NCBI RefSeq assembly: GCF_009711445.1 | Contig: NZ_SMMC01000215.1 | Span: 1 to 38,547 of the forward strand | From: Curvivirga aplysinae | GTDB lineage: Bacteria > Pseudomonadota > Alphaproteobacteria > UBA8366 > Aestuariispiraceae | Direction of reading: 5' to 3' | Length of the DNA: 38,547 nt | The notes under the pieces: model-generated | Databases searched by the model: none | Seen by the model: only the letters and a program-made list of their open reading frames with translations | What the model was told of the DNA's origin: nothing | Shown here: one piece after another, positions 23,290 to 38,547 of the stretch | Layout of the letters: every line of letters starts with the position of its first letter | How positions within the stretch are numbered: the stretch's first letter is position 1 | Position numbers and translations under genes: made by a program

Positions 23290-24384
23290 ATGATTCCATT
23301 ATCTGTTCCCGATTTATCAGAAGCCGAAGAATTAGCCGTTATGGCCTGCGTGCGATCCTCTTGGGTATCTTCAGCTGGACCTGAAATTGAAGCGTTTGAA
23401 AAAGAGATTGCGGAATATTGTGGCCGACAATTTGCTATTGCTACCTGTTCAGGCACTGCTGCGCTTCAATTGATGTTAACTTGCGCCGGGATTGGACAAG
23501 GCGATAAGGTGATTTTACCCACCTATTGTTTTGTAGCAACAGTCAATGCTATTCTGCATGTTGGCGGGGAGCCAATTTTTGTTGATATAACTCGACAGAA
23601 CTGGGTGCTTGATCCGGATTTAGTTGAAAAAGCACTCAAATTGAACAAAGACGTCAAGGCTGTTATCGCGGTAGACGTTCTTAATAATTTTCCTGACTTT
23701 TATCTGCTAAATGAGATATGCCAAAATTACAATGTTAAGGTATTTGAGGATGCCGCTGGCGCATTGGGGGCCAAGTCGCCAGCTGGTGATGGCGGCAGCT
23801 TCGGTGAAGCCTCAATTTTTAGTTTCAACGGGAACAAAGTTCTAACGACTGGTGGCGGTGGTATGATCGTAACAGATAATGAAGATCTGGCAAAACATGC
23901 TAAATTTTTATGTGCGCAAGCGCGTATAGGTACGGATTATATTCATAGTGAAGTTGGCTTCAATTATCGAATGCCTAATTTAAACGCTGCTTTAGGGCGC
24001 GCACAGTTTGGGCGCTTAGAAGGCATGATCTCAAAGCGCCGGAAAATTATGTCAGACTTTTCAGAATGCGTTGAGAATATGACAGAATGTGAATTACAGC
24101 CATTTAGTAAAGATATTGAAAGTAATGGCTGGCTGACAAGCTTAATATTTGAAGACGAGGATTTATTGGATAAATTTATATCCTATATGACAGACAATGC
24201 AGTTATGGTTAGAAAGTTTTGGCAGCCCTTGCATCATCAGGCTCCTTACAAACAGTTTGAAACATACACCAATGGAAGCGCGAAATATTTATCACACCGA
24301 GTAGTGACACTTCCCTGCTCAAGCAACATGCCGCTTGATGATATAGCTAAGATTTGTAATTTATTAAGAAACTGGAAAATATAA
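23290..24384 (+). CDS. legC: LegC-type PLP-dependent sugar aminotransferase (DegT/DnrJ/EryC1)
   Basis: A 364-residue aminotransferase of the subgroup that aminates 4-keto sugar nucleotides in legionaminic/bacillosamine-type pathways. It starts MIPLSVPDLSEAEELAVMAC and has SSWVSSAGPEIEAFEKEIA, ATCSGTAALQLML (phosphate binding), VFEDAAGALGA with the PLP-pairing Asp, and FSFNGNKVLTTGGGGMIVTD with the PLP lysine at 183, where many relatives read SFHxxK. The ending VRKFWQPLHHQAPY also fits LegC. AGGTG lies before the ATG. It is separated by 9 kb from the other legionaminate-type genes and by 390 bases from the next gene, an unusual placement. Confidence 0.82.
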   Translation: MIPLSVPDLSEAEELAVMACVRSSWVSSAGPEIEAFEKEIAEYCGRQFAIATCSGTAALQLMLTCAGIGQGDKVILPTYCFVATVNAILHVGGEPIFVDITRQNWVLDPDLVEKALKLNKDVKAVIAVDVLNNFPDFYLLNEICQNYNVKVFEDAAGALGAKSPAGDGGSFGEASIFSFNGNKVLTTGGGGMIVTDNEDLAKHAKFLCAQARIGTDYIHSEVGFNYRMPNLNAALGRAQFGRLEGMISKRRKIMSDFSECVENMTECELQPFSKDIESNGWLTSLIFEDEDLLDKFISYMTDNAVMVRKFWQPLHHQAPYKQFETYTNGSAKYLSHRVVTLPCSSNMPLDDIAKICNLLRNWKI

Positions 24385-24707
24385 AGTAAGTGAATAAACC
24401 TAATTTGGATATTTATTGCTTCTCTTTTCATTATATAGATACGATTTCTTTGGCATAAGCCGGCTGCGCAAAAAACCGTATATCCGATGTTTCGTCCAAG
24501 TATTAAAACTTAAATGTCATGTCTTTCAGTTCGAAAATCAACTTCCTGATGTAATTACTAAACGAGCGATGCGAAAACGTGATATACTATACTTTTGCAT
24601 TTTTCACATTGGCGAATTGAGGATATTTATAGAACGTATTTCTAGGAATGGCCTGCTGACTGAACGAATAAAGTTTCACTACTAAAACAGACAAATTCAT
24701 CAAGACA
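24385..24707. other. Gap after the aminotransferase gene
   Basis: No gene is supported here. An 89-codon frame (24416-24685) needs a TTG start, has no ribosome binding site and shows no known domain. The stretch could be decayed coding sequence, but I recognise no remnant in it. Confidence 0.4.
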
Positions 24708-24755
24708 TTGACTTGCAATTTAACTAGAATATCTATAGAAGTTCAATTATTGAAC
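24708..24755 (+). promoter_or_regulatory. Promoter and palindromic operator of the regulator-antiterminator pair
   Basis: TTGACT (24708-24713, five of six to consensus) is followed after 16 bases by the weak -10 TATCTA (24730-24735). GTTCAATTATTGAAC at 24741-24755 is a perfect palindrome with 6-bp arms placed over the expected transcription start. It lies 19 bases before a winged-helix regulator gene, suggesting autoregulation (inference). Confidence 0.55.
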
Positions 24756-24774
24756 ATCAACAAAGCAAACTATC

Positions 24775-25389
24775 ATGTCAAATTCAAGAGTCCTGCGAGA
24801 AATCCTAGTTGAAATTGAACGAGACCCGACAATTTCTCAAAAAAAGATTTCGGAAAGTGTCGGCATTTCCGTTGGCATGGTTAATTGGCATATCAAGCGT
24901 TGTGTGAATAAAGGCTTTATAAAACTTCAACAAGCGCCAGTTCGAAGATATTTTTATTATTTAACCCCAGATGGTTTTGCTGAGAAGGCAAATTTAACTG
25001 CAGATTACTTACGATCTTCCTTTGATATTTTTAAGGCTGGACGCCGTCAATATGAAGAATTGTTTCAACTTTGCAAAACAAATAGGTGGCATTCAGTTGC
25101 CTTTCTGGGGGAAAGCGAACTTAGTGAACTTGCATTATTAGTAGCAACCAAACATGAAAGCATTGATTTAAAATACATCCTCAACTTAAAAGGGAATGGT
25201 GTTGATAGCAATGAAATACCAGTATTGAATATACATAACAGCCTTACGCTTAAAAATCCTGTTAAAATTGATGCGTTGATCGGTACTGATTTCGAGTTAC
25301 GCATTCCAGGCGCCGTGGATATTAATCACATTTCTCAAAGCTGTGATCTGGACTCATCTCGTGTCTTAATTCCAGCTTTTTTAAAATAA
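24775..25389 (+). CDS. Winged-helix regulator of EPS-associated type
   Basis: A 204-residue protein whose first ~75 residues form a winged helix (PTISQKKISESVGISVGMVN, wing RRYFYYLTPDGFAEKANLT), as in MarR-like regulators found at the head of exopolysaccharide clusters. The remaining ~125 residues form an alpha/beta region (VAFLGESELSELALLVA, then IDALIGTDFELRI) that may sense a ligand or partner; I do not recognise it. The stop overlaps the start of the NusG-like gene as TAATG, so the two are made together. A perfect palindrome over the promoter is the likely target. Confidence 0.8.
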   Translation: MSNSRVLREILVEIERDPTISQKKISESVGISVGMVNWHIKRCVNKGFIKLQQAPVRRYFYYLTPDGFAEKANLTADYLRSSFDIFKAGRRQYEELFQLCKTNRWHSVAFLGESELSELALLVATKHESIDLKYILNLKGNGVDSNEIPVLNIHNSLTLKNPVKIDALIGTDFELRIPGAVDINHISQSCDLDSSRVLIPAFLK

Positions 25390-25934
25390 TGGAGGCTGAA
25401 TTGCATATTGAAGATACAGCCTCAACAAAAAACTGGATTGCTGTCACAACACATACAAATTCAGAAGAACTAGCATTAACCAATATAGAACGCCAAGGTT
25501 TTATAGGATATTGTCCAAAGCTGCTAAAGACGCGTCGACATGCTAGAAAAACTGAAGAGGTAAAACGACCTTTATTTCCAGGGTACATCTTTGTACTTAT
25601 AGATACGGCGCATGACCAGTGGAGACCGATAGAATACTCCAAAGGTGTTAGATCTATTGTTAAGTTTGGCAATAGACTTAGCTATCTACCCAAAGGATTA
25701 ATGGAAACTATCATCGAGCGAGAAAGTTCATGTGGTTACATTTTACCAGAAACTAAGAATTTAGATCTAAAAGTTGGTCAAAAAATGCGTGTCACAACAG
25801 ACAGCGTTTTTGAAGGAATAATTGGCACAATCTTGTCTGTCGAAAGCAAAGATAGAATCTGGATTTTGCTGGATTTGCTAAATCGTAAAGTAAAAACTGA
25901 GATTTCGGCATCTAGCTTGTGCAAGCTAAATTAA
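25389..25934 (+). CDS. NusG/RfaH-like transcription antitermination protein
   Basis: A 181-residue NusG paralogue. The NGN domain starts at NWIAVTTHTNSEELALTNIE (about 15-34) and includes YCPKLLKTRRHARKTEEVKR and PLFPGYIFVLID, the RfaH-like core; a KOW region follows (LKVGQKMRVTTDSVFEGIIG, about 126-145, then LDLLNRKVKTEI). Specialised NusG paralogues load on RNA polymerase at a DNA site and let it read through long cell-surface operons. The location directly ahead of a ~12 kb unidirectional glycan operon, with an ops-like element just downstream, supports that role. It is not the housekeeping nusG, which would sit beside secE and rplK. Confidence 0.87.
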   Translation: MEAELHIEDTASTKNWIAVTTHTNSEELALTNIERQGFIGYCPKLLKTRRHARKTEEVKRPLFPGYIFVLIDTAHDQWRPIEYSKGVRSIVKFGNRLSYLPKGLMETIIERESSCGYILPETKNLDLKVGQKMRVTTDSVFEGIIGTILSVESKDRIWILLDLLNRKVKTEISASSLCKLN

Positions 25935-26023
25935 GAAACCACATATTGGTTTCCTAAAAATTATTGGGCTGTGTTGGTGAAATTCACCCGCACTGCGGTA
26001 GCAATTGTGGAACACGTTATCAA
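25935..26023 (+). promoter_or_regulatory. Leader with two hairpins and an ops-like element (GCGGTAGC)
   Basis: This 89-base spacer holds GAAACC-N7-GGTTTC (25935-25953), then GGTGA-AAT-TCACC with further pairing GTG/CAC around it (roughly 25971-25993), then GCGGTAGC at 25995-26002. GCGGTAGC is the core of the enterobacterial ops element GGCGGTAGCGTG that recruits RfaH. It sits directly after an RfaH-like gene and before the first sugar gene, as in JUMPstart leaders. Match to the core is exact; the flanking GTG is displaced (AATTGTGG). Confidence 0.55.
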
Positions 26024-26971
26024 ATGTATCAGTTGGAAAATAAAAAAATCTGGGTCGCAGGGCATAATGGGATGGTAGGAAGTGCTATCGTTCGCTCGTT
26101 GCAACACTATAATCGTCACATTTTGACAACCACGCGACAGGAATTAGATCTGACCAACCAACAAAATGTTATGGATTGGATAAAAAAAAACAAACCTGAT
26201 ACAATTTTTTTAGCTGCGGCAAAAGTGGGAGGAATCCATGCAAATAACAGTTATCCTGCCGAGTTCATATATGACAATCTAACAATTGAAACTAATATCA
26301 TTCACGCAGCCCACCTCAATAATGTTGAAAAATTAGTTTTTTTAGGTTCCTCTTGCATCTATCCACGTAATGCTTCCCAACCCATTTCCGAAGATGAATT
26401 ATTAACAGGTGAGCTGGAATCAACAAATGAATGGTACGCCATAGCAAAAATTGCAGGCATCAAACTTTGCCAAGCCTATAAAAAACAATATGGATGCGAT
26501 TTCATCTCGGTTATGCCCACAAACCTCTACGGACCTGGTGACAACTTCCACCCAGAAAATAGTCACGTTCCAGCTGCTTTATTAGATCGATTTCATCAGG
26601 CGAAAATGTGCGATGCTCCAAAAGTAGAAGTATGGGGAAGCGGGACTCCATTTCGCGAGTTCCTTTATGTAGATGACTTGGCAGATGCATGTATTTACTT
26701 AAGTCAACATTATACAGGCGTGCTCCCAGTAAATGTTGGAACTGGTGCAGATTTAAGTATCCGAGATTTTGCGCATCTGATCGCTAAAACTGTGGGCTAT
26801 AAAGGTGAAATCGTTTTTGATACATCTCGTCCTGATGGAACGCCTAGAAAAGTTCTCAATGTATCAAAGCTTGCTGATTTGGGCTGGACGTACTCCACAG
26901 AACTTTCAAAAGGCTTGAAGCTTTATTATGACTGGTATTTAGAAAATATCCAGACTCTTCGAAACCACTAA
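26024..26971 (+). CDS. fcl: GDP-L-fucose synthase
   Basis: A 315-residue SDR enzyme that converts GDP-4-keto-6-deoxymannose to GDP-L-fucose (epimerase and NADPH reductase). Motifs: KIWVAGHNGMVGSAIVRSL (Rossmann), AAAKVGGIHANNSYPAEFIY, LGSSCIYPRNASQPI with the catalytic Ser, WYAIAKIAGIKLC with Tyr and Lys, and GSGTPFREFLYVDDLADA. The frame extends to a TTG at 25964, but the added 20 residues cross the ops-like leader and do not fit the family, so the ATG at 26024 is chosen. Gmd follows 15 bases later. Confidence 0.93.
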   Translation: MYQLENKKIWVAGHNGMVGSAIVRSLQHYNRHILTTTRQELDLTNQQNVMDWIKKNKPDTIFLAAAKVGGIHANNSYPAEFIYDNLTIETNIIHAAHLNNVEKLVFLGSSCIYPRNASQPISEDELLTGELESTNEWYAIAKIAGIKLCQAYKKQYGCDFISVMPTNLYGPGDNFHPENSHVPAALLDRFHQAKMCDAPKVEVWGSGTPFREFLYVDDLADACIYLSQHYTGVLPVNVGTGADLSIRDFAHLIAKTVGYKGEIVFDTSRPDGTPRKVLNVSKLADLGWTYSTELSKGLKLYYDWYLENIQTLRNH

Positions 26972-26986
26972 TACAAGAAGATATTA

Positions 26987-28024
26987 ATGACAAAAATTGC
27001 ATTGATCACTGGTGTCACAGGGCAAGATGGTGCTTATTTGGCAGAACTATTACTTAATAAAGGGTATGAAGTTCACGGCCTTAAGCGCAGGTCCTCATCG
27101 TTCAACACCGGCAGAGTAGATCATTTGTACCAAGACCCTCACGAAGAAAAAAGTAAGTTTCATCTTCACTATGGAGATCTGACTGATTCTACTAACTTAA
27201 TTAGAATCATCCAAGAAGTGCAACCAGATGAAATTTATAATCTAGCGGCACAAAGTCATGTGCAAGTTAGTTTCGAAACACCCGAATATACTGCAAACTC
27301 CGATGGGCTTGGGACATTGCGGATTCTTGACGCTATTCGAATTCTAAACTTGGAAAACAAAACTAGGTTCTATCAAGCCTCAACGTCCGAACTATACGGC
27401 TTGGTTCAAGAGGTTCCTCAAACTGAAAAAACTCCATTTTATCCCCGCTCTCCTTATGCTGCAGCTAAGCTTTATGCATATTGGATTACTGTCAATTATC
27501 GTGAGGCTTATGGGATCCATGCATCCAACGGGATCCTGTTTAATCACGAAAGCCCTATTCGCGGAGAAACCTTTGTAACGCGTAAAATTACTCGAGCGGT
27601 TGCCGATATAAAAAACAACCGACAAGATATTCTCTATTTAGGTAACCTAGAAGCTCAGCGAGATTGGGGACATGCAAAAGATTATGTAGAAGGCATGTGG
27701 AAAATTCTACAACATGAAGTCGCCGATGATTTTGTTCTTGCAACCGGCGAAACCCATTCGGTGCGTGAATTTGTAGAACTTGCCTTCAAACATGTAAATA
27801 TTACAATTTCTTGGCAGGGCCATGGTTTGGATGAGCAAGGCATTGACACCTCTAATGGTAAGATCCTTGTGAAAGTAGATCCAAGATATTTCCGTCCAAC
27901 TGAAGTTGATTTACTGATTGGCGATCCTGCCAAAGCACACAGAGAGCTTAACTGGCACCACAAAACTGACCTTGAAACGTTAGTTAAGGAAATGGTTGAC
28001 GCGGATTTATCCGCTAACAAGTAA
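26987..28024 (+). CDS. gmd: GDP-mannose 4,6-dehydratase
   Basis: A 345-residue SDR dehydratase forming GDP-4-keto-6-deoxymannose, the substrate of the enzyme encoded just upstream. Motifs are [19 protein letters not shown] (NADP site), [46 protein letters not shown] with the catalytic Thr/Ser-Glu, [20 protein letters not shown] with Tyr and Lys, and [16 protein letters not shown]. Length and motif spacing are normal. Together with fcl it supplies GDP-L-fucose or a related 6-deoxyhexose. Confidence 0.96.
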
Positions 28025-28064
28025 GTAATTTGATCTAAGATAGAATGTTAGAAAAGTTATAGTC

Positions 28065-29981
28065 ATGTGCGGAATCGTAGGCCTTTGGGATCGCTCACAA
28101 TCTTCATCTAAGTCATCCGTTAAAAACATATGTGCGGAAATGGCAAATAAACTGATCCATAGAGGACCCGATTCAAAAGGCACATGGATCGGCTCAGGAA
28201 CAAATATCTCATTTGGATTCCAGCGTCTTGCGATTCTTGATTTATCAGAGAGCGGTCATCAACCGATGCACTCTCCAGATACTAATCTAACTATCGCTTT
28301 TAATGGGGAAATTTATAATCATTTACAAATCCGAGAAGAATTAAATCGATTGGGTTATAACTTTCGAGGTCACTCTGATACGGAAACAATTATTTGTGCC
28401 TTCCAACAATGGGGAATCGAAAAAGCACTTGCCAAATTTGTAGGAATGTTTGCAATCGCTCTGTGGAGCGAAAAAGAGAAAAAACTATATCTTATTCGAG
28501 ATCGAATGGGCATCAAGCCATTATACTGGACTCAGCAAAACGATATTTTTGCTTTTTCATCTGAATTAAAAGCCTTTAAGAAATGCTCGAATCTAGAGTT
28601 CCAAATCGATAGACCTGCTCTTTCACTGTTTCTACGATACGGCTATATACCTGCTCCTCATTGTATCTTCCAAAATTTTCATAAACTTGAGCCCGGTACA
28701 ATTCTCTGTATTGGTGAAAACAGCACCATAGAACAGAAAAAGTTCTGGGACTTAGAGCAAGTCCTAGAAAAAGCAAAGAGAAACAAGTTCTCTTCGCCCG
28801 ATGACGTTGTCGATCAGTTGCACGAAACTCTAAAAACTGCTGTCCAAGACCGCCTATTATCAGATGTCCCGCTAGGCACTCTTTTATCAGGAGGGATAGA
28901 TAGCTCAACAATAGCAGCTCTCACTCAAGAACATAGCAGCCAACCAATCAGTACTTTTTCTATTGGTTTCCAAGAAGAAAACTACAACGAAGCACAACAT
29001 GCCAAAGCCATTGCCAAATTCCTAGGAACAAAACATACAGAATTGTATGTAAGTGCTACTGATGCTATCTCAGTTATTCCTAAGATGGGAAAGGTTTATG
29101 ATGAGCCTTTTGCAGATTCTTCGCAAATACCAACTTACCTTGTATCTGAACTTGCCAAAAAGGAGGTTACTGTCGCCCTATCAGGTGATGGCGGGGACGA
29201 GTTGTTTGGGGGGTATCGTCGTTATGATATAATGAACTCTGTTTGGACTAAAACCAGTGCGTTTAGTCCATTTGCTTGTAAGTTGTTTATCAAAGCAATT
29301 CAAAAACTCCCTAAACGCGTCCTTGCAAGTCCTTATGGAATGGATTTGTATACCTATACAACCAAGCTTGCGGATAAGGCTTCGGGGTTAACGCAACTGA
29401 AATCCTATCAAAAACACTTGTCTCAATATTTAACGCCAGAGGATCTCATTTTATCGGATGTGTCTGAACTCGATATCTTCAACGATGAAACTATCAGCAA
29501 TAAACTTACTGATCTGCAGGACTTAATGCAGTTTATTGATAGCAAATTATACCTACCTGACGACATTCTAACCAAGGTTGATCGCGCAAGTATGGCTCAC
29601 AGCTTAGAACTTCGCGTACCAATCATTGATCACCGTGTGGTAGAGCTCGCATGGCGCATTCCTTCTAGATATAGATATATGGATGGAGTTGGCAAATGGC
29701 CACTTCGCCAAGTACTCTATAAATACATACCTAAGGAACTTGTAGATCGCCCAAAATCCGGCTTCAATGTTCCAGTAAAATATTGGTTAAAGAATGAGCT
29801 TTTTGCTTGGGGCGACGCATATCTTTCCAAAGAGTACATTCAAAAACAAGTTTTTTTCAATCCTTCGAAAGTGGAACATCTGTGGCAACAACACCAAAAT
29901 GGAGGAGCAAATAATTTCCCGATAATATGGTGCTTGCTTATGTTCCAAGAATGGTATCAAAACTGGAATGAAAATGACTAA
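28065..29981 (+). CDS. asnB: AsnB-type glutamine-dependent amidotransferase
   Basis: This 638-residue protein has an N-terminal class II glutaminase domain with nucleophile Cys2 (MCGIVGLWD, HRGPDSKGTW, AFNGEIYNHLQIREEL) and a C-terminal synthetase domain with the PP-loop LLSGGIDSSTIAALTQ near residue 275 and VALSGDGGDELFGGYRR. It matches asparagine synthase. Copies in glycan clusters often amidate a sugar acid instead of aspartate, so the true acceptor is open. It is in the same operon as the sugar genes; the downstream glycosyltransferase overlaps its 3' end by 14 bases. Confidence 0.9.
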   Translation: MCGIVGLWDRSQSSSKSSVKNICAEMANKLIHRGPDSKGTWIGSGTNISFGFQRLAILDLSESGHQPMHSPDTNLTIAFNGEIYNHLQIREELNRLGYNFRGHSDTETIICAFQQWGIEKALAKFVGMFAIALWSEKEKKLYLIRDRMGIKPLYWTQQNDIFAFSSELKAFKKCSNLEFQIDRPALSLFLRYGYIPAPHCIFQNFHKLEPGTILCIGENSTIEQKKFWDLEQVLEKAKRNKFSSPDDVVDQLHETLKTAVQDRLLSDVPLGTLLSGGIDSSTIAALTQEHSSQPISTFSIGFQEENYNEAQHAKAIAKFLGTKHTELYVSATDAISVIPKMGKVYDEPFADSSQIPTYLVSELAKKEVTVALSGDGGDELFGGYRRYDIMNSVWTKTSAFSPFACKLFIKAIQKLPKRVLASPYGMDLYTYTTKLADKASGLTQLKSYQKHLSQYLTPEDLILSDVSELDIFNDETISNKLTDLQDLMQFIDSKLYLPDDILTKVDRASMAHSLELRVPIIDHRVVELAWRIPSRYRYMDGVGKWPLRQVLYKYIPKELVDRPKSGFNVPVKYWLKNELFAWGDAYLSKEYIQKQVFFNPSKVEHLWQQHQNGGANNFPIIWCLLMFQEWYQNWNEND

Positions 29982-31215
29982 GTCAAATTTCAAAATTGCT
30001 GTTGTCGCGAATAGTTTTTTTGGAATAGGTGGCGCAGAAAACTCAACACAGAGCCTGGTGCGCAGCTTAACAAAAGATGGTTATTCCGTTACAGTATTCT
30101 TACCTGACAAAGAACGCTCCAAACAACCTGAAAAGCCTGATTTTAATATTCGGTATTTCCCAAATGAGACTTTATTTATCTCCTTTCGCGATATCATTCT
30201 GAACCGCGATCAAAAGATCAATTTATGCGCAGACCTAATAGATTTCCGCGCGATTCATTTTTGTATGCTAAATACCATGATGGCTCTCTTCCCATACTTT
30301 CGGCATCGGAACTGGAGTGTAACCTGTCGTGGAGGAGATATTCAAAATCCAAGAAAAACTAACTATAAAGAGATCGTACGGAACTCTCCTTATAGAATAG
30401 CCTATAAAGGCTTTAGAACGAAAGTCAAGAACGAAGTATTTTTAAGAATTTTTCTTCTTTGGTATCGAAAATCAGGACATTTCATAACCATATCTGAAGA
30501 TATGCTTAGTGAACTTAAAGCTTTAGGAGTCCCTACCAACAAAGCACATAAGATTCTAAATGGAGTCGATACCGTGCGTCTCGATAAAATTTTGTCTTCT
30601 ACTTATATAGCAAAGCGCTCAGAAAAAACAAAATACATCTATGCTATTGGAAGAAATGACTCACGAAAAGGTTTTTATACTCTCCTGGATGCTGCAATGG
30701 TGTTACGAGATAGAAGTATAGATAACATACGCTTTCTATTAAAAGGTCGAGGTTTCAACGACATTGTTAGAATTTCTGAAGAGCTTAATGTAGAACGCTA
30801 TTTTACCGTAATTGATGAGAACCATAATATTGATTTCAAAGTAGAAACTTTCCTTGAAGACGATGGTCAAATCCCAGATGTTCCCACTGTTGCTTTATAC
30901 AAAATCGCAGATATAGTGATAATTCCTTCTTTAATTGAAGCACTTTCTAATATTGGACTAGAATCAGAAGTCGCTGATAAGCCCCTTATAGTTTCTGATA
31001 CTTTTGGATGTCGCGAATACATAACGCGAGAAACTGCTATTGGTTTTAGAACAGCCGATGCTACAGATCTAGTGGATCAAATCATCTCGGTTCTCTCTGA
31101 TCAAAATATTCAAGATCGTCTCAGGAGAATGAGACAAATACGTCAAAAACAAAACAACAAAGATAACTTTGTTCAAAAATACAAAGAAATAATTTTAGGA
31201 AAAAATAGTGTTTAA
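29968..31215 (+). CDS. Glycosyltransferase, GT4-like
   Basis: A 415-residue cytoplasmic glycosyltransferase with a GT-B layout. The N-terminal IAVVANSFFGIGGAENSTQS is the acceptor-side loop of the GT4 family; the second half has KYIYAIGRNDSRKGFYTLLD, then DIVIIPSLIEALSNIGLESE (the ExxxxxxxE nucleotide-sugar motif area) and PLIVSDTFGCREYI. Donor and acceptor cannot be read from sequence. The ATG at 29968 lies within asnB; a second ATG at 29974 is possible. It overlaps the exporter gene by 8 bases. Confidence 0.85.
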   Translation: MKMTKSNFKIAVVANSFFGIGGAENSTQSLVRSLTKDGYSVTVFLPDKERSKQPEKPDFNIRYFPNETLFISFRDIILNRDQKINLCADLIDFRAIHFCMLNTMMALFPYFRHRNWSVTCRGGDIQNPRKTNYKEIVRNSPYRIAYKGFRTKVKNEVFLRIFLLWYRKSGHFITISEDMLSELKALGVPTNKAHKILNGVDTVRLDKILSSTYIAKRSEKTKYIYAIGRNDSRKGFYTLLDAAMVLRDRSIDNIRFLLKGRGFNDIVRISEELNVERYFTVIDENHNIDFKVETFLEDDGQIPDVPTVALYKIADIVIIPSLIEALSNIGLESEVADKPLIVSDTFGCREYITRETAIGFRTADATDLVDQIISVLSDQNIQDRLRRMRQIRQKQNNKDNFVQKYKEIILGKNSV

Positions 31216-33034
31216 GAGCTTGCGTGAAATCGGCAAATTGCTTCGATATTTCAATCCTTATTTTTTGAAGTACTATACTAATCTTATCTTCGTAGTAATA
31301 CTGTCCATATTCGCAATTTTTTCTGACCTTATTAGCATTGGGGCTTTTGTTTCTGTTATCAAGATTATATTGAATGCTGAAAATACTAACTCTTTAACTT
31401 TTGCAGGTTTCAATTTTTCCTGGATTCAGGACAGTAATTTATCTAACAAGGAAATTATTTTCTATTCTTCGGGCGCGTTAATTTTAGTTCTATCTGTGAA
31501 AGAGTGGCTACTCTTTCTCAATGAATTGGTAGCCTTAAAATTACGACTTTATATAGACGGTGATGTAAAGAAATCACTATTTCAAAAATACCTTTCTGTC
31601 GACCACAATACTTTTGTGAATATAGAGAAAGGTGAAAGCGTCACAATAATTGGAACACTTTCAGGATATGTTGGACATCTAATTTTCAATATTGTCGATC
31701 TTATTCCTCTCGTATTTTTGCTAATTTTTCACCTTTCTGTGCTGCTTTTTGTAAGCTGGGAAGCCACAATTTTTACAATTCTTATAGTATGCATCATTAT
31801 TTTAACGATCAGCTGGGTGCTAAGATCCCAAAAAGAAACAGCCCAAGTTGTCGCAGATTCGCAAATTCGAATAAACGATGATGTGCTATCAATGCTAGCC
31901 GACAATATTGTTAATAGCGTCTACCGCTTGGCCCCTATTCGCGAAAATGATTTTCACAAAACTGTTAGTCGGAACATCAAGTACACAGGAGAACTTGGTC
32001 GCCTGAATGCCCTTACGCGACCTATTCAAGGTATGACTACTACCTTAGGACTTGCGGTAGTTCTATTGGCCCTAGGTATTAATGCTCCTGAAAATGATAC
32101 AACTTGGATTGAGACGTTGATGGTCTTTGTTTTTGTTCTGTGGCGCCTGCTATCCCCAGTTGCAGGTATAAACAATAGAATCAATAGAACTATTCAACTT
32201 CTGCCATTACTAAACAAAGTAAAAAATGCTTTGGATCATGCCACTGAGAAAAAAATAAACCTTTCAGGCAAATCGATACCGTCTCTAAAAGGGAGCATCT
32301 CTTTTCGGGATGTTGCTTTCAAGTATAATGATGACAATAGCCCAGCAATCAAGTGTATAAACTTAACTCTTCAATCTGGTAAATTCACCGCACTTGTAGG
32401 GAAATCAGGTTCAGGAAAATCAACGCTTTCCAAATTGCTGTTACGTGCTTTAAAACCTTCACATGGCTCAATATTCCTTAATGCGCAAGATGTAACCGAA
32501 ATATCTATGCGTGATTGGTTCAATCGCATAGCTTATGTGCCGCAAGAAGCTATACTAATAAATGGAACAATTCTTGAAAACATTAGATTAGGCTATGAAA
32601 GTGTAACATTTGAAAAGGCAGAAGAGGTTTCAAAGCTCGTTGATATTCATGACTTTATTATGGAGTTGCCTAATGGTTATAACACATATCTTGGTGAAGG
32701 GGGCATTCGCCTGTCTGGCGGCCAAGCCCAAAGACTAACGATCGCACGAGCACTGGCAAAAGAAGCTGACATAATAATATTTGACGAACCCACGAGTGCT
32801 CAAGATGCAGAAACTGAAGGTTTTCTGAAGGATACATTGAGGAAACTTTTCAAAAACAAAACTGTTATTATGATCGCCCACCGTTTATCGACCATCCAAG
32901 ATGCGGACCAGATCGTGGTGATGGAGAATGGTGAAATATCTGAGTTAGGTTTGCACGACGAATTATTAAAGCTGGATGGCATATATCGCAGATTCGTAAA
33001 CAATCAAGAATTAAAAACGGGAAATAAATGGTAG
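31208..33034 (+). CDS. ABC exporter / lipid-linked oligosaccharide flippase-type (PglK/MsbA-like)
   Basis: A 608-residue fused ABC transporter: about six membrane helices in residues 1-330, then an ATPase domain with Walker A VGKSGSGKSTLSKLLL, Q-loop AYVPQEAILI, signature LSGGQAQRLTIARALA, Walker B IIIFDEPTSAQD and switch IAHRLST. The D-loop reads SAQD where SALD is usual. Proteins of this type flip lipid-linked glycans (PglK) or lipid A (MsbA); the operon favours a glycan intermediate. The start is GTG at 31208 with AGGAA upstream, overlapping the glycosyltransferase. LegB overlaps its end by 7 bases. Confidence 0.85.
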   Translation: MFKSLREIGKLLRYFNPYFLKYYTNLIFVVILSIFAIFSDLISIGAFVSVIKIILNAENTNSLTFAGFNFSWIQDSNLSNKEIIFYSSGALILVLSVKEWLLFLNELVALKLRLYIDGDVKKSLFQKYLSVDHNTFVNIEKGESVTIIGTLSGYVGHLIFNIVDLIPLVFLLIFHLSVLLFVSWEATIFTILIVCIIILTISWVLRSQKETAQVVADSQIRINDDVLSMLADNIVNSVYRLAPIRENDFHKTVSRNIKYTGELGRLNALTRPIQGMTTTLGLAVVLLALGINAPENDTTWIETLMVFVFVLWRLLSPVAGINNRINRTIQLLPLLNKVKNALDHATEKKINLSGKSIPSLKGSISFRDVAFKYNDDNSPAIKCINLTLQSGKFTALVGKSGSGKSTLSKLLLRALKPSHGSIFLNAQDVTEISMRDWFNRIAYVPQEAILINGTILENIRLGYESVTFEKAEEVSKLVDIHDFIMELPNGYNTYLGEGGIRLSGGQAQRLTIARALAKEADIIIFDEPTSAQDAETEGFLKDTLRKLFKNKTVIMIAHRLSTIQDADQIVVMENGEISELGLHDELLKLDGIYRRFVNNQELKTGNKW

Positions 33035-34044
33035 ATAATATGAATTCGAAGATCCTTGTTACTGGCGGAGACGGTTTTATTGGAAGTCATCTAGTGGAAG
33101 AACTTGTCCGCCAAGGGCGTTCGGTACGTGTGTTCTGTTGCTATAACAGTTTTAACAGTTGGGGTTGGTTGGACAAATCTGACCCTAACACTCGAGATAA
33201 AATAGAAGTCATTCTCGGAGATATACGGGACAGATATTGTGTGACAGAAGCAATGAGAGGTTGTGATAGCGTAATGCATTTAGCTGCTCTTATAGCTATC
33301 CCTTATAGTTATGTAGCGGCAGAAGCATTTGTAGATGTCAACGTCAAAGGAACGCTAAATGTCGTTGAAGCTGCACGCCAACTAGGTGTCAAAAAAGTCG
33401 TGCATACTTCAACAAGTGAAACCTATGGTACGGCTCAGTTCGTGCCCATTTCAGAAGAACACCCTTTGGTTGGTCAATCGCCATATGCAGCATCAAAAAT
33501 TGGTGCTGATCAGATTGCTATGTCCTATTGGCGTTCATTTGATGTCCCAGTTGCAACAGTCCGACCATTTAACACATATGGACCGCGTCAGAGTTTACGC
33601 GCTGTAATACCTACGGTTTTATGTCAACTAATCGACGGCGCTACCAAGTTAAAACTTGGCGCAGCAAGCCCACGCCGTGATTTTAACTTTATCGAGGATA
33701 CCGTTAGTGGAATGATCGCTATTCTTGATAGCGAGAAATCAATCGGGGAAACGATTAATATTGGGAACGGATATGACATTTCAATAGGCGATATGGTTGA
33801 TATTTGCATGGAGATTACTAGTAATCAGGTTGAAATTGAAACAGAAGAACAGCGTATTAGACCCGAGGCCAGTGAGGTGGAACGCCTGCTATGCTCAAAT
33901 GAAAAAGCAAAGACACTGCTAGGATGGGAACCAAAATATCACGGTCACGAAGGTCTGCGCAATGGTTTGGCAAAATATGCAGAATGGCTCATGGTTAGAG
34001 AAAACCGTCAAAGCTATGTCAACACTGATCGATACGTTATCTAA
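33028..34044 (+). CDS. legB: LegB-type NAD-dependent 4,6-dehydratase
   Basis: A 338-residue extended SDR that dehydrates a nucleotide-activated GlcNAc at C4/C6, the first modification step toward legionaminic acid. Motifs: KILVTGGDGFIGSHLVEELV, MHLAALIAIPYSYVAAEAFV, HTSTSETYGTAQFVPISEEH and SPYAASKIGADQIAMSYWRS (Tyr and Lys), and RPFNTYGPRQSLRAVIPTV. The CCYNSFNSWGWLD segment is typical of this subgroup. A GGGA ribosome binding site precedes the ATG at 33028; ATG 33040 is a possible alternative. LegC normally follows legB, but here legG does. Confidence 0.88.
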   Translation: MVDNMNSKILVTGGDGFIGSHLVEELVRQGRSVRVFCCYNSFNSWGWLDKSDPNTRDKIEVILGDIRDRYCVTEAMRGCDSVMHLAALIAIPYSYVAAEAFVDVNVKGTLNVVEAARQLGVKKVVHTSTSETYGTAQFVPISEEHPLVGQSPYAASKIGADQIAMSYWRSFDVPVATVRPFNTYGPRQSLRAVIPTVLCQLIDGATKLKLGAASPRRDFNFIEDTVSGMIAILDSEKSIGETINIGNGYDISIGDMVDICMEITSNQVEIETEEQRIRPEASEVERLLCSNEKAKTLLGWEPKYHGHEGLRNGLAKYAEWLMVRENRQSYVNTDRYVI

Positions 34045-34070
34045 CAACTTACTCAATCAATCTAAATCAT

Positions 34071-35240
34071 ATGACTAAAGTAGCAATTTTCACAAGTGGC
34101 CGAGCTGAGTATGGCTTGCTTACCCCTCTAATCGATGAGTTAAAAGAACATCCAGAGTTTGAGGTTGGACTATTTGTAACTGGCATGCATTTATCACATG
34201 AATTTGGTCATTCTGTTAATCAGATTGAGGCAAATAGTCATGTAATTTGGGAAAGAATAGAAGGTTTGCTTTCCGGAGATTCTGAATCCGCTATATGCAA
34301 ATCACTGGCACTAACCACGTTAGGCATGTCTGAAGCATTACAGCGTCATCAACCCGATATTCTGTTTCTTTTGGGTGACCGATATGAGTTGCTCGCAGCA
34401 GCGCAAGCAGCAACAATACACAGAATACCCATCGGTCATATACACGGAGGAGAAACAACAGAAGGTGCATTTGATGAGGCCATCCGTCATGCGATAACTA
34501 AAATGTCACATCTGCATTTCACTTCCACGGATATTTATCGTCAACGTGTCATCCAAATGGGTGAGTCCCCACAGAAAGTCTTCAACGTCGGAGCAATGGG
34601 CTTAGACAACATAACTAAACTTAACCCGCTAAGCAGACAACAATTATCCGAAGACCTTAAACTGGACTTCGACAAAAAAACCTTTCTAATCACATATCAC
34701 CCGGTAACTTTAGAAGATAAAACACCAAAATGGGCCGTTATGGAACTTTTAGATGCTTTGAGTGAACTTAATGAAAGCAACTTTATTTTCACACATCCAA
34801 ATAGTGATCCCAATAGTAGAGAAATATTGCCTCTAGTCAGAGATTTTGTGGAAAGCCATGCGCCAAACGCTATCTTGGTAGAAAATTTAGGTATGTTAAG
34901 ATATTTAAGCGTATTAAAAATTGCCGCCGCAGTTATTGGAAATTCCTCAAGTGGTATAATTGAAGCACCATTGCTCAATACTGCAACTATTAATATTGGG
35001 TCACGGCAACGCGGTAGAATAGCTGGCAATTCGATAATTCAATGTGACGATGATCAGGACGAAATACTTAACGCTATTCGTGAATCTCAATCAAAAAGTT
35101 TCCAACGTAATATGCTAAGTTTCAAAAATCCATATGGCTATGGCAATGCGTCGAGTCAAATTGTTGATATTCTTTCTAAAATCAAACTCGACAAGATACT
35201 TATCAAGAAGTTCAATGACCTCGACAATATCAGGATTTAA
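34071..35240 (+). CDS. legG: Hydrolysing UDP/GDP-GlcNAc-type 2-epimerase (LegG/NeuC-like)
   Basis: A 389-residue GT-B-fold enzyme that epimerises C2 and releases the nucleotide, giving the free mannosamine-type sugar condensed by the nonulosonate synthase. Motifs are MTKVAIFTSGRAEYGLLTPL, LFLLGDRYELLAAAQAA, GHIHGGETTEGAFDEAIRHA, TYHPVTLE, FTHPNSDPNSREI and VIGNSSSGIIEAP. The order legB-legG-legI-ptmE points to the legionaminate rather than the sialic acid substrate. No clear ribosome binding site precedes the ATG. The protein is slightly longer at the C-terminus than typical members. Confidence 0.88.
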   Translation: MTKVAIFTSGRAEYGLLTPLIDELKEHPEFEVGLFVTGMHLSHEFGHSVNQIEANSHVIWERIEGLLSGDSESAICKSLALTTLGMSEALQRHQPDILFLLGDRYELLAAAQAATIHRIPIGHIHGGETTEGAFDEAIRHAITKMSHLHFTSTDIYRQRVIQMGESPQKVFNVGAMGLDNITKLNPLSRQQLSEDLKLDFDKKTFLITYHPVTLEDKTPKWAVMELLDALSELNESNFIFTHPNSDPNSREILPLVRDFVESHAPNAILVENLGMLRYLSVLKIAAAVIGNSSSGIIEAPLLNTATINIGSRQRGRIAGNSIIQCDDDQDEILNAIRESQSKSFQRNMLSFKNPYGYGNASSQIVDILSKIKLDKILIKKFNDLDNIRI

Positions 35241-35374
35241 AAATAATGCGTAATACGCAAGCGGATAACGGTTGTCACACGATACTGATCCTATTTCTTG
35301 GAGAACCGAGTTCGCTAACTTATTGAGAATCGGCACCTAGATCAAAATCTCTGAGACCAAAATTGAAGGTTAAA

Positions 35375-36454
35375 ATGTCTAAAAACGTTTATATAATTGC
35401 AGAAGCAGGCGTAAACCATAATGGAGAGTTATCGCGCGCTTTCGATCTCGTAGATATCGCAGCTGAGACTGGAGCAGATGCTGTTAAGTTTCAGACTTTT
35501 AAAGCAGATGAGCTAACAACTCAGCGCGCCGAGACTTGCGACTATCAAAGGTCGGCAACAAAAGGGGCAGTATCTCAACAAGATATGCTTCGGGCTCTGG
35601 AGCTATCGGAAGAAGAGTTTTGCATGCTGGCGGAGCATTGTGCAAAAAAGAACATTGAGTTTATGTCGACTGGTTTTGATATCAAAAGCTTAGATTTTCT
35701 AACTTCTAAAACTAAAATCAAGCGTGTAAAAATACCGTCGGGCGAAATGGTGAATCCATTCTTATTACTTCACGCTGCACGTACAAATTTACCTATTATA
35801 ATTTCCACTGGCCTTGCTTCACTTGAAGAAGTTAAACTTTCTATCGGTGTTATTTCATATGGACTTGCTCATCCGCATTCCATACCAACACGAGAGGAAG
35901 CGTTAGAGCAGTTGGAAAGCAAACAAAATTATGACCTCTTAAGAGAAAAAATTACAATTCTTCACTGCACAAGTGCTTATCCTGCACCTATGAGTGACAT
36001 AAATCTAAACGCTATCCGAACGCTGCATGACGAGTTCGAACTCGACATCGGTTTCTCAGATCATTCTCAAGGTATTAACGCATCTTTAGGTGCCGTAGCA
36101 GTTGGCGCAAAAGTCATCGAAAAACACTTTACTTTGGATAAAAACCTTCCGGGCCCGGACCACAAAGCCTCTCTATCTCCGAAAGAACTAAACGAACTTG
36201 TTTCCGGCATCCGCGACATTGAGCGAGCTTTAGGTAGCGGACAAAAGCAACCTTCATCTAGTGAATCAAAAAATAAACTCGCGGTCCGTGGTTCTTTAGT
36301 AGCATCATGCAAAATATCTAAAGATGAGATTCTAACTGAAGAAAACTTAACTGCGAAACGCCCTGGTGATGGGTTGCATCCTATGGCTTTTCTTGATCTG
36401 AATGGCCAAAAAGCTTCAAAACAATACGATCCTGATGATCTAATCAAAGAATAA
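35375..36454 (+). CDS. legI: N-acylneuraminate/legionaminate synthase (NeuB/LegI)
   Basis: A 359-residue PEP-condensing enzyme that makes nine-carbon nonulosonic acids. The TIM barrel begins VYIIAEAGVNHNGELSRAF and has ADAVKFQTFKADELTT, KIPSGEMVNPFLL, STGLASLEEV, CTSAYPAP, IGFSDHSQGINASLGAVAVG and KHFTLDKNLPGPDHKASL; a C-terminal SAF (antifreeze-like) domain follows with RGSLVASCKISKDE and LTAKRPGDGLHPM. The HKASL form argues against pseudaminate synthase. The ATG at 35375 has GAAGG 5 bases upstream and is preferred to a TTG at 35363. Confidence 0.92.
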   Translation: MSKNVYIIAEAGVNHNGELSRAFDLVDIAAETGADAVKFQTFKADELTTQRAETCDYQRSATKGAVSQQDMLRALELSEEEFCMLAEHCAKKNIEFMSTGFDIKSLDFLTSKTKIKRVKIPSGEMVNPFLLLHAARTNLPIIISTGLASLEEVKLSIGVISYGLAHPHSIPTREEALEQLESKQNYDLLREKITILHCTSAYPAPMSDINLNAIRTLHDEFELDIGFSDHSQGINASLGAVAVGAKVIEKHFTLDKNLPGPDHKASLSPKELNELVSGIRDIERALGSGQKQPSSSESKNKLAVRGSLVASCKISKDEILTEENLTAKRPGDGLHPMAFLDLNGQKASKQYDPDDLIKE

Positions 36455-36609
36455 ATTTTCTGCGAAAACTCGCAATGTGTTAGCGAACTTACCATACAAA
36501 ATGTAATTGTCTTATTATGATCACTACTATAATCATGTGAGACTCCATAAGTATTATAGATAAGTATCTCAATGTTACAAATTTGTCGAACTAAGCCCAA
36601 TAAAAAACT

Positions 36610-37677
36610 ATGACTATAAGAAGCGACATACAAAACATCTCTTTACCAAATAAGAGTAAAATCAGCGATGCGCTCACGATTCTTGAAAAATATCGCAAGA
36701 AAATTGTACTTATCATAGATGAGAAGAAGAAACTTGAAGGTATTGTTGTCGACGGAGATATAAGGCGTGCTCTAATTAAGGGATTGCCTTTAAATACCCC
36801 ACTCACAGAAATTATGAATACAGCGCCATTAATCTTGGATGATGATGTAGATCAAAATGAAGCAATCTCCTTTATGCGAAAAAACGGCATACAGCAACTA
36901 CCTGTTGTAGATATCGATGGTCAAGTTATAAACATACTGGAGTTGAATGAACTGTCAAAATCATTACAGCATGATAACTGGGTCGTTATCATGGCTGGTG
37001 GCGAAGGAAGAAGACTTCGCCCACTTACAAATGATATACCTAAACCAATGTTGAAAGTTGGCTCTCGACCTATCTTGGAAACAATCATTCGCCAGTTTGT
37101 TTCGCATGGCTTCAAGAAATTTATCTTATCCGTAAATTATCTGTCTCATACGATTGAGGATCACTTTGGTGACGGTAAAGAATTCGGCGTCGAGATCAAA
37201 TATATTCGCGAAACAGAGAAAATGGGAACGGCTGGAAGTTTAAGTTTACTAGAATTCAAGCCCACCTCTCCGTTCATTGTAATGAATGGAGACATTTTAA
37301 CAAATGTGAATTTCTCGAACCTGATTAAACGGCATGAACAACTTCAACCTGCGGCGACAATGTGTGTTCGAGAATACAAAATCGAAGTCCCCTTTGGCGT
37401 CGTAGAAGTTACAGAAAGTGAAGATCAAATAACAGCCTTACACGAAAAACCTTCAACGCTTCATTATATCAACGCAGGTATATACATATTGGCGCCTGAA
37501 GTATTAAAGCAGATTCCAAAAAATATATTTTTTGATATGACAGATCTATTTTCAACACTTATAAGTGAGAATTCTGTGCTTTTACCCTATGTGGTTCACG
37601 AGTATTGGGCAGATATAGGTCGGTTCTCCGACTATGAGAAAGTAAATAGTGAATACGCCACAATTTTTGCACCTTAA
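36610..37677 (+). CDS. ptmE: PtmE-type CBS-domain nucleotidyltransferase (glucosamine-1-phosphate guanylyltransferase-like)
   Basis: A 355-residue protein with two N-terminal CBS motifs (residues ~1-115; IVVDGDIRRALIKG, then QLPVVDIDGQVINILEL) and a sugar-nucleotidyltransferase domain starting WVVIMAGGEGRRLRPLTNDI, with KPMLKVGSRPILE, MGTAGSLSLL and FIVMNGDILT. In Campylobacter, PtmE makes GDP-glucosamine, the entry to a GDP-linked legionaminic acid route, and the gene order here matches that module. No ribosome binding site is evident. The next gene starts 1 base after the stop. Confidence 0.85.
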   Translation: MTIRSDIQNISLPNKSKISDALTILEKYRKKIVLIIDEKKKLEGIVVDGDIRRALIKGLPLNTPLTEIMNTAPLILDDDVDQNEAISFMRKNGIQQLPVVDIDGQVINILELNELSKSLQHDNWVVIMAGGEGRRLRPLTNDIPKPMLKVGSRPILETIIRQFVSHGFKKFILSVNYLSHTIEDHFGDGKEFGVEIKYIRETEKMGTAGSLSLLEFKPTSPFIVMNGDILTNVNFSNLIKRHEQLQPAATMCVREYKIEVPFGVVEVTESEDQITALHEKPSTLHYINAGIYILAPEVLKQIPKNIFFDMTDLFSTLISENSVLLPYVVHEYWADIGRFSDYEKVNSEYATIFAP

Positions 37678-37678
37678 T

Positions 37679-38547
37679 ATGAAAAAACACATAATATCTT
37701 TCTATAACTGTTCGGCTTCTAATCTACGGAAGTGTAAACAATTCATTCAGTATTTCCCTGAAAGACTGCTTTCAGAAATCGAGATATCACGACTTCCCAA
37801 AGATTTTTATCAAGTACATTCTTTTGATGATTTACTTCAAAGGAAACGAAGCGATACCATTTTTATTTTCGGCTCAGGCGGAAGTATATCGGATATAAAC
37901 GCGGGTGAATGGGCAGAAATTTCAAAACATAATACGTTAAGCTTTAATAACTTTTTTGTTCAAAAACTAATAGATATTGATTATCACATCGTTCGTGAAA
38001 TTGGAGATGTTGATTTCATTGGTTATGAACGTAATTCATTTCATAAGAATATTGCTGATGTTATAAATTCAAGCCCTTACTACGAGAACAGTGTTTTTTG
38101 TTTCCAGCGTGATTGGCAAGGATGGGCAGCCAAGTTTTTTGTCGGCTCAAAAATACTCCGTAGAGGAACAAAAATCTTCCCATTTAAGAACAAAGTTCGA
38201 GGTTTCCACCCTCCTACTGACAATATCAAATACGGTCTAACGCACGGTCCCGGGACACTCACTGATTGTATAAACTTAGCTTATTTATTGGGCTTTAAAG
38301 ACATAGTATTATGTGGGGTAGACTTAAATGACCGTCGCTATTTCTGGATGAAACCGGACATGGACTACTATGAAATTGATGGTCTCACCATTGCGGGAGG
38401 TGAAACATCGGCAAATACTGTAGTGTCTAGCGAACCGCATAGAACTGCTAATAGCCTAATTCCGTTTCTCCAGAACTGGAGGAACATTTTAGCGCAAAAT
38501 GATACAACACTATATGTTCAGAATCCCAATTCCGTATTGAATGAAAT
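37679..38547 (+). CDS. Partial gene: CstII/Maf-like putative nonulosonate transferase
   Basis: The frame opens at ATG 37679, one base after the ptmE stop, and stays open for 289 codons to the window end. Features shared with GT42 sialyltransferases and the related Maf/DUF115 core: a nucleotide loop FIFGSGGSISDI (Gly65-Ser69), a SFNNFF segment matching the conserved FrxNxFF, LTDCINLAYLLGFKDIVLCG plus VDL, a candidate catalytic His254 in EPHRTAN, and the ending LYVQNPNSVLN that parallels the C-terminus of CstII. Only a few residues may be missing. Next to nonulosonate synthesis genes, a transferase for that sugar is the natural reading, but the similarity is by eye. Confidence 0.5.
   Translation, partial: MKKHIISFYNCSASNLRKCKQFIQYFPERLLSEIEISRLPKDFYQVHSFDDLLQRKRSDTIFIFGSGGSISDINAGEWAEISKHNTLSFNNFFVQKLIDIDYHIVREIGDVDFIGYERNSFHKNIADVINSSPYYENSVFCFQRDWQGWAAKFFVGSKILRRGTKIFPFKNKVRGFHPPTDNIKYGLTHGPGTLTDCINLAYLLGFKDIVLCGVDLNDRRYFWMKPDMDYYEIDGLTIAGGETSANTVVSSEPHRTANSLIPFLQNWRNILAQNDTTLYVQNPNSVLNE

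Follow-up and report, generated by a model that had tools for sequence, protein, structure and literature searches.

A rare, single-domain protein family related to GT42 sialyltransferases includes a candidate CMP-legionaminate transferase of Curvivirga aplysinae

The gene that follows ptmE in a legionaminate-type polysaccharide cluster of Curvivirga aplysinae probably encodes, with a likelihood that we put at roughly 75%, a stand-alone, single-domain inverting CMP-legionaminate transferase that has the sialyltransferase (GT42/GT29/Maf) fold and serves a surface glycan. The family, fold, conserved residues, and gene context of this protein were established by computation, and it is from these that we infer its donor, acceptor, linkage, activity, and residue roles.

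Results

The target gene and its family

The window, by which we mean the whole stretch of DNA that was analyzed, spans positions 1-38547 on a contig of 78,075 bases from the 3.56 Mb genome of C. aplysinae. The target gene is cut by the window end, although the contig goes on, and begins one base past ptmE, as the first-pass annotation had described: the TAA stop codon of ptmE occupies 37675-37677, a single T follows, and the ATG start codon is at 37679. An in-frame GTG at 37649, which overlaps ptmE, is an alternative start, and the ATG is the more likely of the two. The open frame ends past the window at the start of the next gene, which encodes a CMP-nulosonate synthetase, and the first 289 residues of the target protein lie inside the window. 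The coordinates of the gene, its motifs, and its neighbors are collected in Table 1.

Table 1. Features of the target gene and of the surrounding cluster in the window
Feature	Position	Strand	Basis
Candidate CMP-nulosonate (legionaminate) transferase, gene continues past window	37679..38547	+	Frame, PDB profile search, fold, conserved residues
Gly-rich nucleotide-binding loop GSGGS, residues 65-69 (within FIFGSGGS)	37871..37885	+	Aligns with CstII AGNGPS loop
His189 of HG motif, second conserved His	38243..38245	+	16/17 members
GVDLNDRRYFW signature, residues 213-223	38315..38347	+	Aligns with CstII GIDFYQ...Y
His254, proposed general base	38438..38440	+	16/17 members
NPNS motif, residues 282-285	38522..38533	+	Aligns with CstII PNS
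PtmE/LegE-like: N-terminal CBS-like part and sugar-1-phosphate nucleotidyltransferase	36610..37677	+	Partial-family matches
NeuB/LegI-like nulosonate synthase	35363..36454	+	TIGR03569, 438.9 bits > cut-off 399.65
NeuC/LegG-like hydrolysing 2-epimerase	34071..35240	+	TIGR03568, 471.4 bits > cut-off 235.9
LegB 4,6-dehydratase	33028..34044	+	TIGR04180, 492.2 bits > cut-off 475
ABC exporter, same polysaccharide cluster	31208..33034	+	PF00005
GT4-type glycosyltransferase of cluster	29968..31215	+	PF00534
LegC-type aminotransferase	23290..24384	+	TIGR04181, 360.8 bits < cut-off 420

Sequence comparison assigns the target to a rare, unnamed family of 17 distinct loci. A single-sequence search matched three of 98 related genomes, its own included, and direct single-sequence searches returned no relative from genome_contigs, viral_contigs, plasmids, or the PDB; beyond the two relatives from related genomes, the family was reached by alignment searches only. 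Those searches gave 10 loci in genome_contigs (141 pattern matches), five loci in viral_contigs (60 pattern matches), three matching genomes among 385 of the class (its own, G004, and the weak L027), and its own genome only among 398 of the phylum. L017 and L021 lie on the same contigs as the two single-sequence relatives, and the distinct loci total 17. According to the titles of their records, they belong to Alphaproteobacteria, Gemmatimonadetes, Actinobacteria, Thermoleophilia, Acidobacteria, a Woesearchaeota MAG, and contigs that are filed as viral, a rare and patchy spread that would fit horizontal transfer together with the cluster. The protein is 281 aa long in L016 and 238-252 aa in L029, L030, L031, and L033. 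The 14-row alignment (A3) does without three members (L024, L027, and L032), all of which are included in the 17-row count from which conservation is given below.

Conserved residues

The landmarks by which the gene had originally been likened to CstII-type sialyltransferases, namely a Gly-rich loop, a GFKDIVLCG strand with an Asp, a late His, and an LYxxxPNS ending, were all recovered. The loop reads FIFGSGGS, the strand GFKDIVLCGVDL carries Asp215, the late His is His254, and the C-terminal stretch within the window is LYVQNPNSVL. In the 17-row alignment, G65, G67, S69, G213, D215, S285, and L287 are kept in every member, and His254 (Thr in L024), His189, and Asn90 (Gly in L016) in 16 each; Tyr221 is kept in 15. 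Judged by this conservation across the 17 members, the landmarks exceed chance.

At the positions of CstII Tyr156 and Tyr162, which we take to be phosphate-binding residues, the window protein has Asn217 and Tyr221, of which the second is aligned differently from one alignment to another. Fourteen of the 17 members have Tyr at position 217, the window protein and L024 have Asn, and L027 has Lys. The general base of CstII is His188 according to the part of PMC4202792 that we draw on. His254 falls on this residue in the HMMER (11-row profile) and HHalign alignments; it is about four residues off in the 14-member profile alignment and one or two residues off in MAFFT alignments. On the alignments, His254 is likely the exact counterpart of His188. 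The absence of a catalytic His had been named at the outset as a result that would tell against the assignment, and what we found is a late His kept nearly throughout the family. The same part of PMC4202792 describes Arg129, Asn51, and Tyr81 of CstII as binding the sialylated acceptor. These three residues are not conserved in the family in MAFFT alignments, which leads us to expect an acceptor other than the one used by CstII.

Sequence relationship to GT42, Maf, and MptE

Profiles of the family were searched against 177,635 PDB sequences, and GT42 enzymes were on top in every search, with best E-values of 0.18 (three members), 0.0031 (11 members), and 7.7e-6 (14 members). Eight GT42 sequences matched the 14-member profile with E-values between 7.7e-6 and 5.1e-5, of which the best was CstII (profile positions 43-264 against CstII 3-221); the next ranks were an unrelated chain at E 0.63 and a Pasteurella sialyltransferase at E 0.79. 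Maf and MptE chains were absent from the matches of this profile up to E 10; MptE was likewise absent with the two smaller profiles, which amounts to no exclusion. By profile comparison, GT42 enzymes are the only significant relatives of the family in the PDB, in agreement with the GT42-like transferase that the first-pass annotation had proposed. HHalign comparison of the family with GT42 (CstII and a Maritalea enzyme) scored 69.1 over 206 columns, reaching the C-terminal end, and comparison with three Mafs scored 46.7 over 137 columns of the N-terminal part only. No score above 22.1 came from 60 column shuffles per template, and none above 21.3 from 20 unrelated proteins. A search of the Woesearchaeota genome for MptE-like genes gave only the target homolog, so that the HHalign comparison covered GT42 and Maf.

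Of the profile searches recommended earlier, those with curated family models did not repeat the significant GT42 matches of the PDB search: PF06002 went unmatched and PF01973 stayed below its cut-off. None of 11 members matched PF06002 (CST-I) at E 1 or better; as a positive control, the Maritalea enzyme scored 53.8 bits against the cut-off of 25. In Pfam, the target matches PF01973 alone (30.7 bits, below the cut-off of 34.6). This model matched eight of 11 members, the best E-value being that of the window protein, itself below cut-off, and in three members the match spans only the shared mG.k.I.l.GvDl stretch. A reverse search of the C. aplysinae genome with a two-row GT42 profile was empty and missed the target. 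The target is thus GT42-related and not a filed GT42 member, since the curated model PF06002 is not matched, and it is not filed as a Maf because of its architecture and its score below the PF01973 cut-off. The target had only two NCBIfam matches, both weak, which were set aside as chance, one to a 16S rRNA methyltransferase (15.8 bits against a cut-off of 265) and one to an FAD-binding protein (11.7 bits against a cut-off of 812).

The PF06002 model found nothing in 190 genomes of the class, a result that carries no weight since no control genome matched either, and gave two matches in 398 genomes of the phylum. Both were rejected: the translated frame of L035 gave no recognizable GT42 protein, and L036 is short with an internal stop. 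A CstII query returned nothing from the viral set and nothing from phages. The GT42 alignment consisted of CstII and the Maritalea enzyme, without L035, L036, or three Pasteurella matches from the plasmid collection. The Maritalea enzyme is encoded on Maritalea myrionectae plasmid pHL2708Y3 (L037) near NeuB and NeuA genes; it passes PF06002, and a true GT42 therefore also occurs in the alphaproteobacterial class.

Predicted fold

The model of the truncated window protein was weak (pLDDT 74.9), and the fold conclusions therefore rest on the AlphaFold model of the full-length member L016 (pLDDT 90.1, pTM 0.90). Foldseek matches are led by MptE, Maf, and CstI, with M. jannaschii HPPK first. In VIA-align, the L016 model matched the central domain of Maf 5mu5 with Z 14.2 over 226 residues, MptE with Z 12.3 over 184 residues, CstII with Z 11.0 (4.4 A, 200 residues), CstI with Z 10.9, and animal sialyltransferases with Z 10.2-11.0 (ST8SiaIII 11.0 over 208 residues; ST3Gal-type 10.4). 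Other folds scored lower (SteA 9.0, 3cq9 7.9, the rest at most 4.1), and sialyltransferases of GT52, GT80, and GT38 are missing from the VIA-align lists, which excludes nothing. The prediction puts the protein in the sialyltransferase/Maf/MptE fold group, within which the order of scores does not favor GT42. The comparison with CstII that had been suggested gave a match on the L016 model, but Maf and MptE score higher; because Maf, MptE, CstII, and the animal sialyltransferases all match, the fold alone does not pick a subfamily. Neither Foldseek nor VIA-align placed an unrelated fold above this group, the outcome that had been held in advance to speak against a GT42-like enzyme.

Gene context

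The genes upstream of the target (Table 1) form, with those downstream, a legionaminate-type pathway. For the cluster NeuB, the NeuB model gives a score of 438.9 and the PseI model one of 247.5. Downstream of the target lie a NeuA-like cytidylyltransferase (PF02348; best NCBIfam model PseF, 128.7 against a cut-off of 205.7), an SDR, a Gfo/Idh oxidoreductase, a WbuX amidotransferase (367.1 against 203.2), HisF (295.1 against 294.55), HisH, a second SDR, and a sulfotransferase. The pathway probably includes an acetamidino modification of legionaminate. The other glycosyltransferases scanned in the cluster are of GT4 or GT2 types, one of them weakly GT4-like. The cluster is headed, at 24775-25934, by a winged-helix regulator together with a NusG-like protein, an arrangement reminiscent of long polysaccharide operons under RfaH-type control. 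Among the frames listed for the cluster (window 23290-38547 and L010), none was noticed that would encode a LegH-type N-acetyltransferase. Of pterin genes, the closest one seen encodes GTP cyclohydrolase I and lies about 26 kb off on the same contig.

The genome also encodes two PF01973 Maf proteins above cut-off, of 662 aa (L011, G000:C207) and 936 aa (L012, G000:C29), both on other contigs. The gene for the 662-aa Maf comes after a flagellin gene and before a second NeuB homolog, an asparagine-synthetase-like gene, and an amidotransferase gene. This arrangement suggests separate nulosonate routes, one for flagellin and one for the glycan of the window. A third NeuB homolog of the genome is at G000:C188:10418-11386.

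Across the family, a NeuB homolog was found in 10 of the 17 loci (the window, L013, L014, L015, L018 when extended, L019, L020, L022, L029, and L033). None was seen in the remaining seven, L016 (3.8 kb), L023 (contig end), L024, L027 (3.3 kb), L030, L031, and L032, three of which are short or contig-end stretches. Random placement would put NeuB within 8 kb in about 1.3% of cases (three NeuB copies in 3.56 Mb), and the fair base rate is higher than this because polysaccharide genes cluster. The alphaproteobacterium Aestuariispira insulae resembles C. aplysinae in that the target homolog directly adjoins NeuA in both, in Aestuariispira directly after it. In Gemmatimonadales (L015), the homolog shares strand and neighborhood with LegB-, LegC-, NeuC-, NeuB-, and PtmE-like genes. 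Nulosonate or glycan neighbors recur in Gemmatimonadales, Actinobacteria, and Woesearchaeota, so the tie to legionaminic acid synthesis that had been noted in the window extends, as an association of legionaminic type, across phyla.

Several of these loci have features of their own. Between NeuB and PtmE, L015 has a frame for a NeuD-like acyltransferase. On two IMG/VR contigs filed as viral, of 351 kb (L029) and 548 kb (L033), a 12.7-kb stretch carries NeuA, NeuB, and the target homolog within about 6 kb, and the surroundings hold many small glycosyltransferase- and methyltransferase-like frames. The Woesearchaeota MAG (L018, L040) has an archaeal nulosonate cluster with NeuA, NeuB, NeuC, a LegC-like aminotransferase, HisH, HisF, and two WbuX-like amidotransferases, and here the target homolog is about 12 kb from NeuB.

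Discussion

On the reading that we prefer, the donor would be CMP-legionaminic acid made by the surrounding LegB-, LegC-, NeuC-, NeuB-, PtmE-, and NeuA-like enzymes, probably in its acetamidino form because WbuX, HisF, and HisH genes lie downstream. The Gly-rich loop and Asn90 would hold the cytidine, and Tyr221 with neighboring residues of the GVDL..RRYFW motif would hold the phosphate. His254 would deprotonate the acceptor hydroxyl in the manner of CstII His188, and the sugar would pass to a hydroxyl of the surface glycan with inversion and with no metal ion. Among known systems, the Campylobacter jejuni enzymes CstI and CstII (CAZy GT42, PF06002) resemble the family in fold, Gly-rich loop, the equivalent of Asn31, GvDl strand, late His, and NPNS-like end. 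The family differs from them in having no PF06002 match, in not conserving Arg129, Asn51, and Tyr81 of CstII, and in its own HG and DRRYFW motifs, and its nulosonate would probably be legionaminic acid rather than Neu5Ac. Animal GT29 enzymes (ST8SiaIII, ST3Gal1) share the fold at Z 10.2-11.0, but identity in the listed structural alignments is 5-9% and there is no sequence match. Several results count against the reading: Maf and MptE outscore CstII in fold, PF06002 is unmatched, the reverse GT42 search was empty, Asn217 stands in place of Tyr156, the acceptor residues of CstII are not conserved, the alignment of the His shifts, and seven of the 17 loci show no NeuB.

The fold scores bear on the question of whether the protein is instead a short Maf-type (PF01973) transferase that adds a nulosonate directly onto protein, for example a surface protein, and not onto a glycan. 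A Maf central domain gives the best score for the predicted structure (Z 14.2 over 226 residues), the target matches no Pfam family besides PF01973, HHalign to Maf is above chance, and Mafs use CMP-nulosonates, as stated in the parts of PMC11339370 and PMC9298399 that we cite. We nevertheless consider a Maf unlikely. The N- and C-terminal domains of Mafs are absent (281 aa in L016 versus 666 aa in 5mu5), so that neither this protein nor the 238-252 aa members show the three domains and about 600 aa or more by which Mafs are recognized; the HHalign match is confined to the N-terminal part; the three aligned Mafs have no conserved His at the place of His254; no Maf chain appeared at E <=10 in the PDB profile search; and the two true Mafs of the genome are encoded on other contigs, where one of them adjoins a flagellin gene, which the target does not. 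The Pfam name of the same model raises a further reading, an MptE-like pyrophosphokinase (6-hydroxymethylpterin diphosphokinase), which we regard as highly improbable. Its attractions are the leading place of M. jannaschii HPPK in Foldseek, the Z of 12.3 to MptE (8sd5) in VIA-align, and the GTP cyclohydrolase I gene on the same contig. The gene neighbors in Gemmatimonadales, Actinobacteria, and Woesearchaeota, however, belong to nulosonate and glycan rather than pterin or methanopterin pathways, MptE is missing from the profile matches up to E 10, and the PF01973 matches of three members cover nothing but the mG.k.I.l.GvDl stretch.

The transferase fold could also work with a different donor, such as CMP-Kdo or CMP-pseudaminate, or the protein could be a non-catalytic partner in this species. 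The Asn at position 217 of the window protein and the preference of the NeuA-like neighbor for the PseF model, below cut-off, would suit such a role, and Mafs accept CMP-Neu5Ac and CMP-Kdo according to the portion of PMC11339370 used here. LegB, NeuC, and NeuB, on the other hand, pass legionaminate or neuraminate models, NeuB with 438.9 versus 247.5 for PseI, and the window protein retains His254 along with the other motif residues, so that we hold a different donor or a non-catalytic role to be distinctly unlikely.

Pathways for CMP-legionaminic acid synthesis are known, and the enzymes that attach the sugar mostly are not. According to the sections that we cite of a 2020 article (PMC7439481), reports of a bacterial enzyme that transfers Leg to cell surfaces did not yet exist. 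The corresponding sections of a 2024 article call information on legionaminyltransferases very limited and name only Maf4, which acts on flagellin, as a candidate (PMC11356810). Against the cited portions of this literature (PMC7439481, PMC11356810, PMC9298399, PMC13130089), what is new here is a distinct, unnamed variant among enzymes of a familiar type, which would act where very few enzymes are known. The window protein may even be the first recognized member of a phylum-spanning group of single-domain legionaminic acid transferases for cell-surface glycans, which would use the His mechanism of GT42, stand between GT42 and Maf/MptE in sequence, and have spread along with their nulosonate genes to bacteria, an archaeon, and some very large contigs that are filed as viral; this wider proposal we advance tentatively, as somewhat short of an even bet. 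The family is compact, its late His can be tested, and its presumed donor is made by the neighboring genes, all of which lends it to direct assay. It may serve as a tool for making legionaminylated glycans, and it offers a link between GT42, Maf, and MptE.
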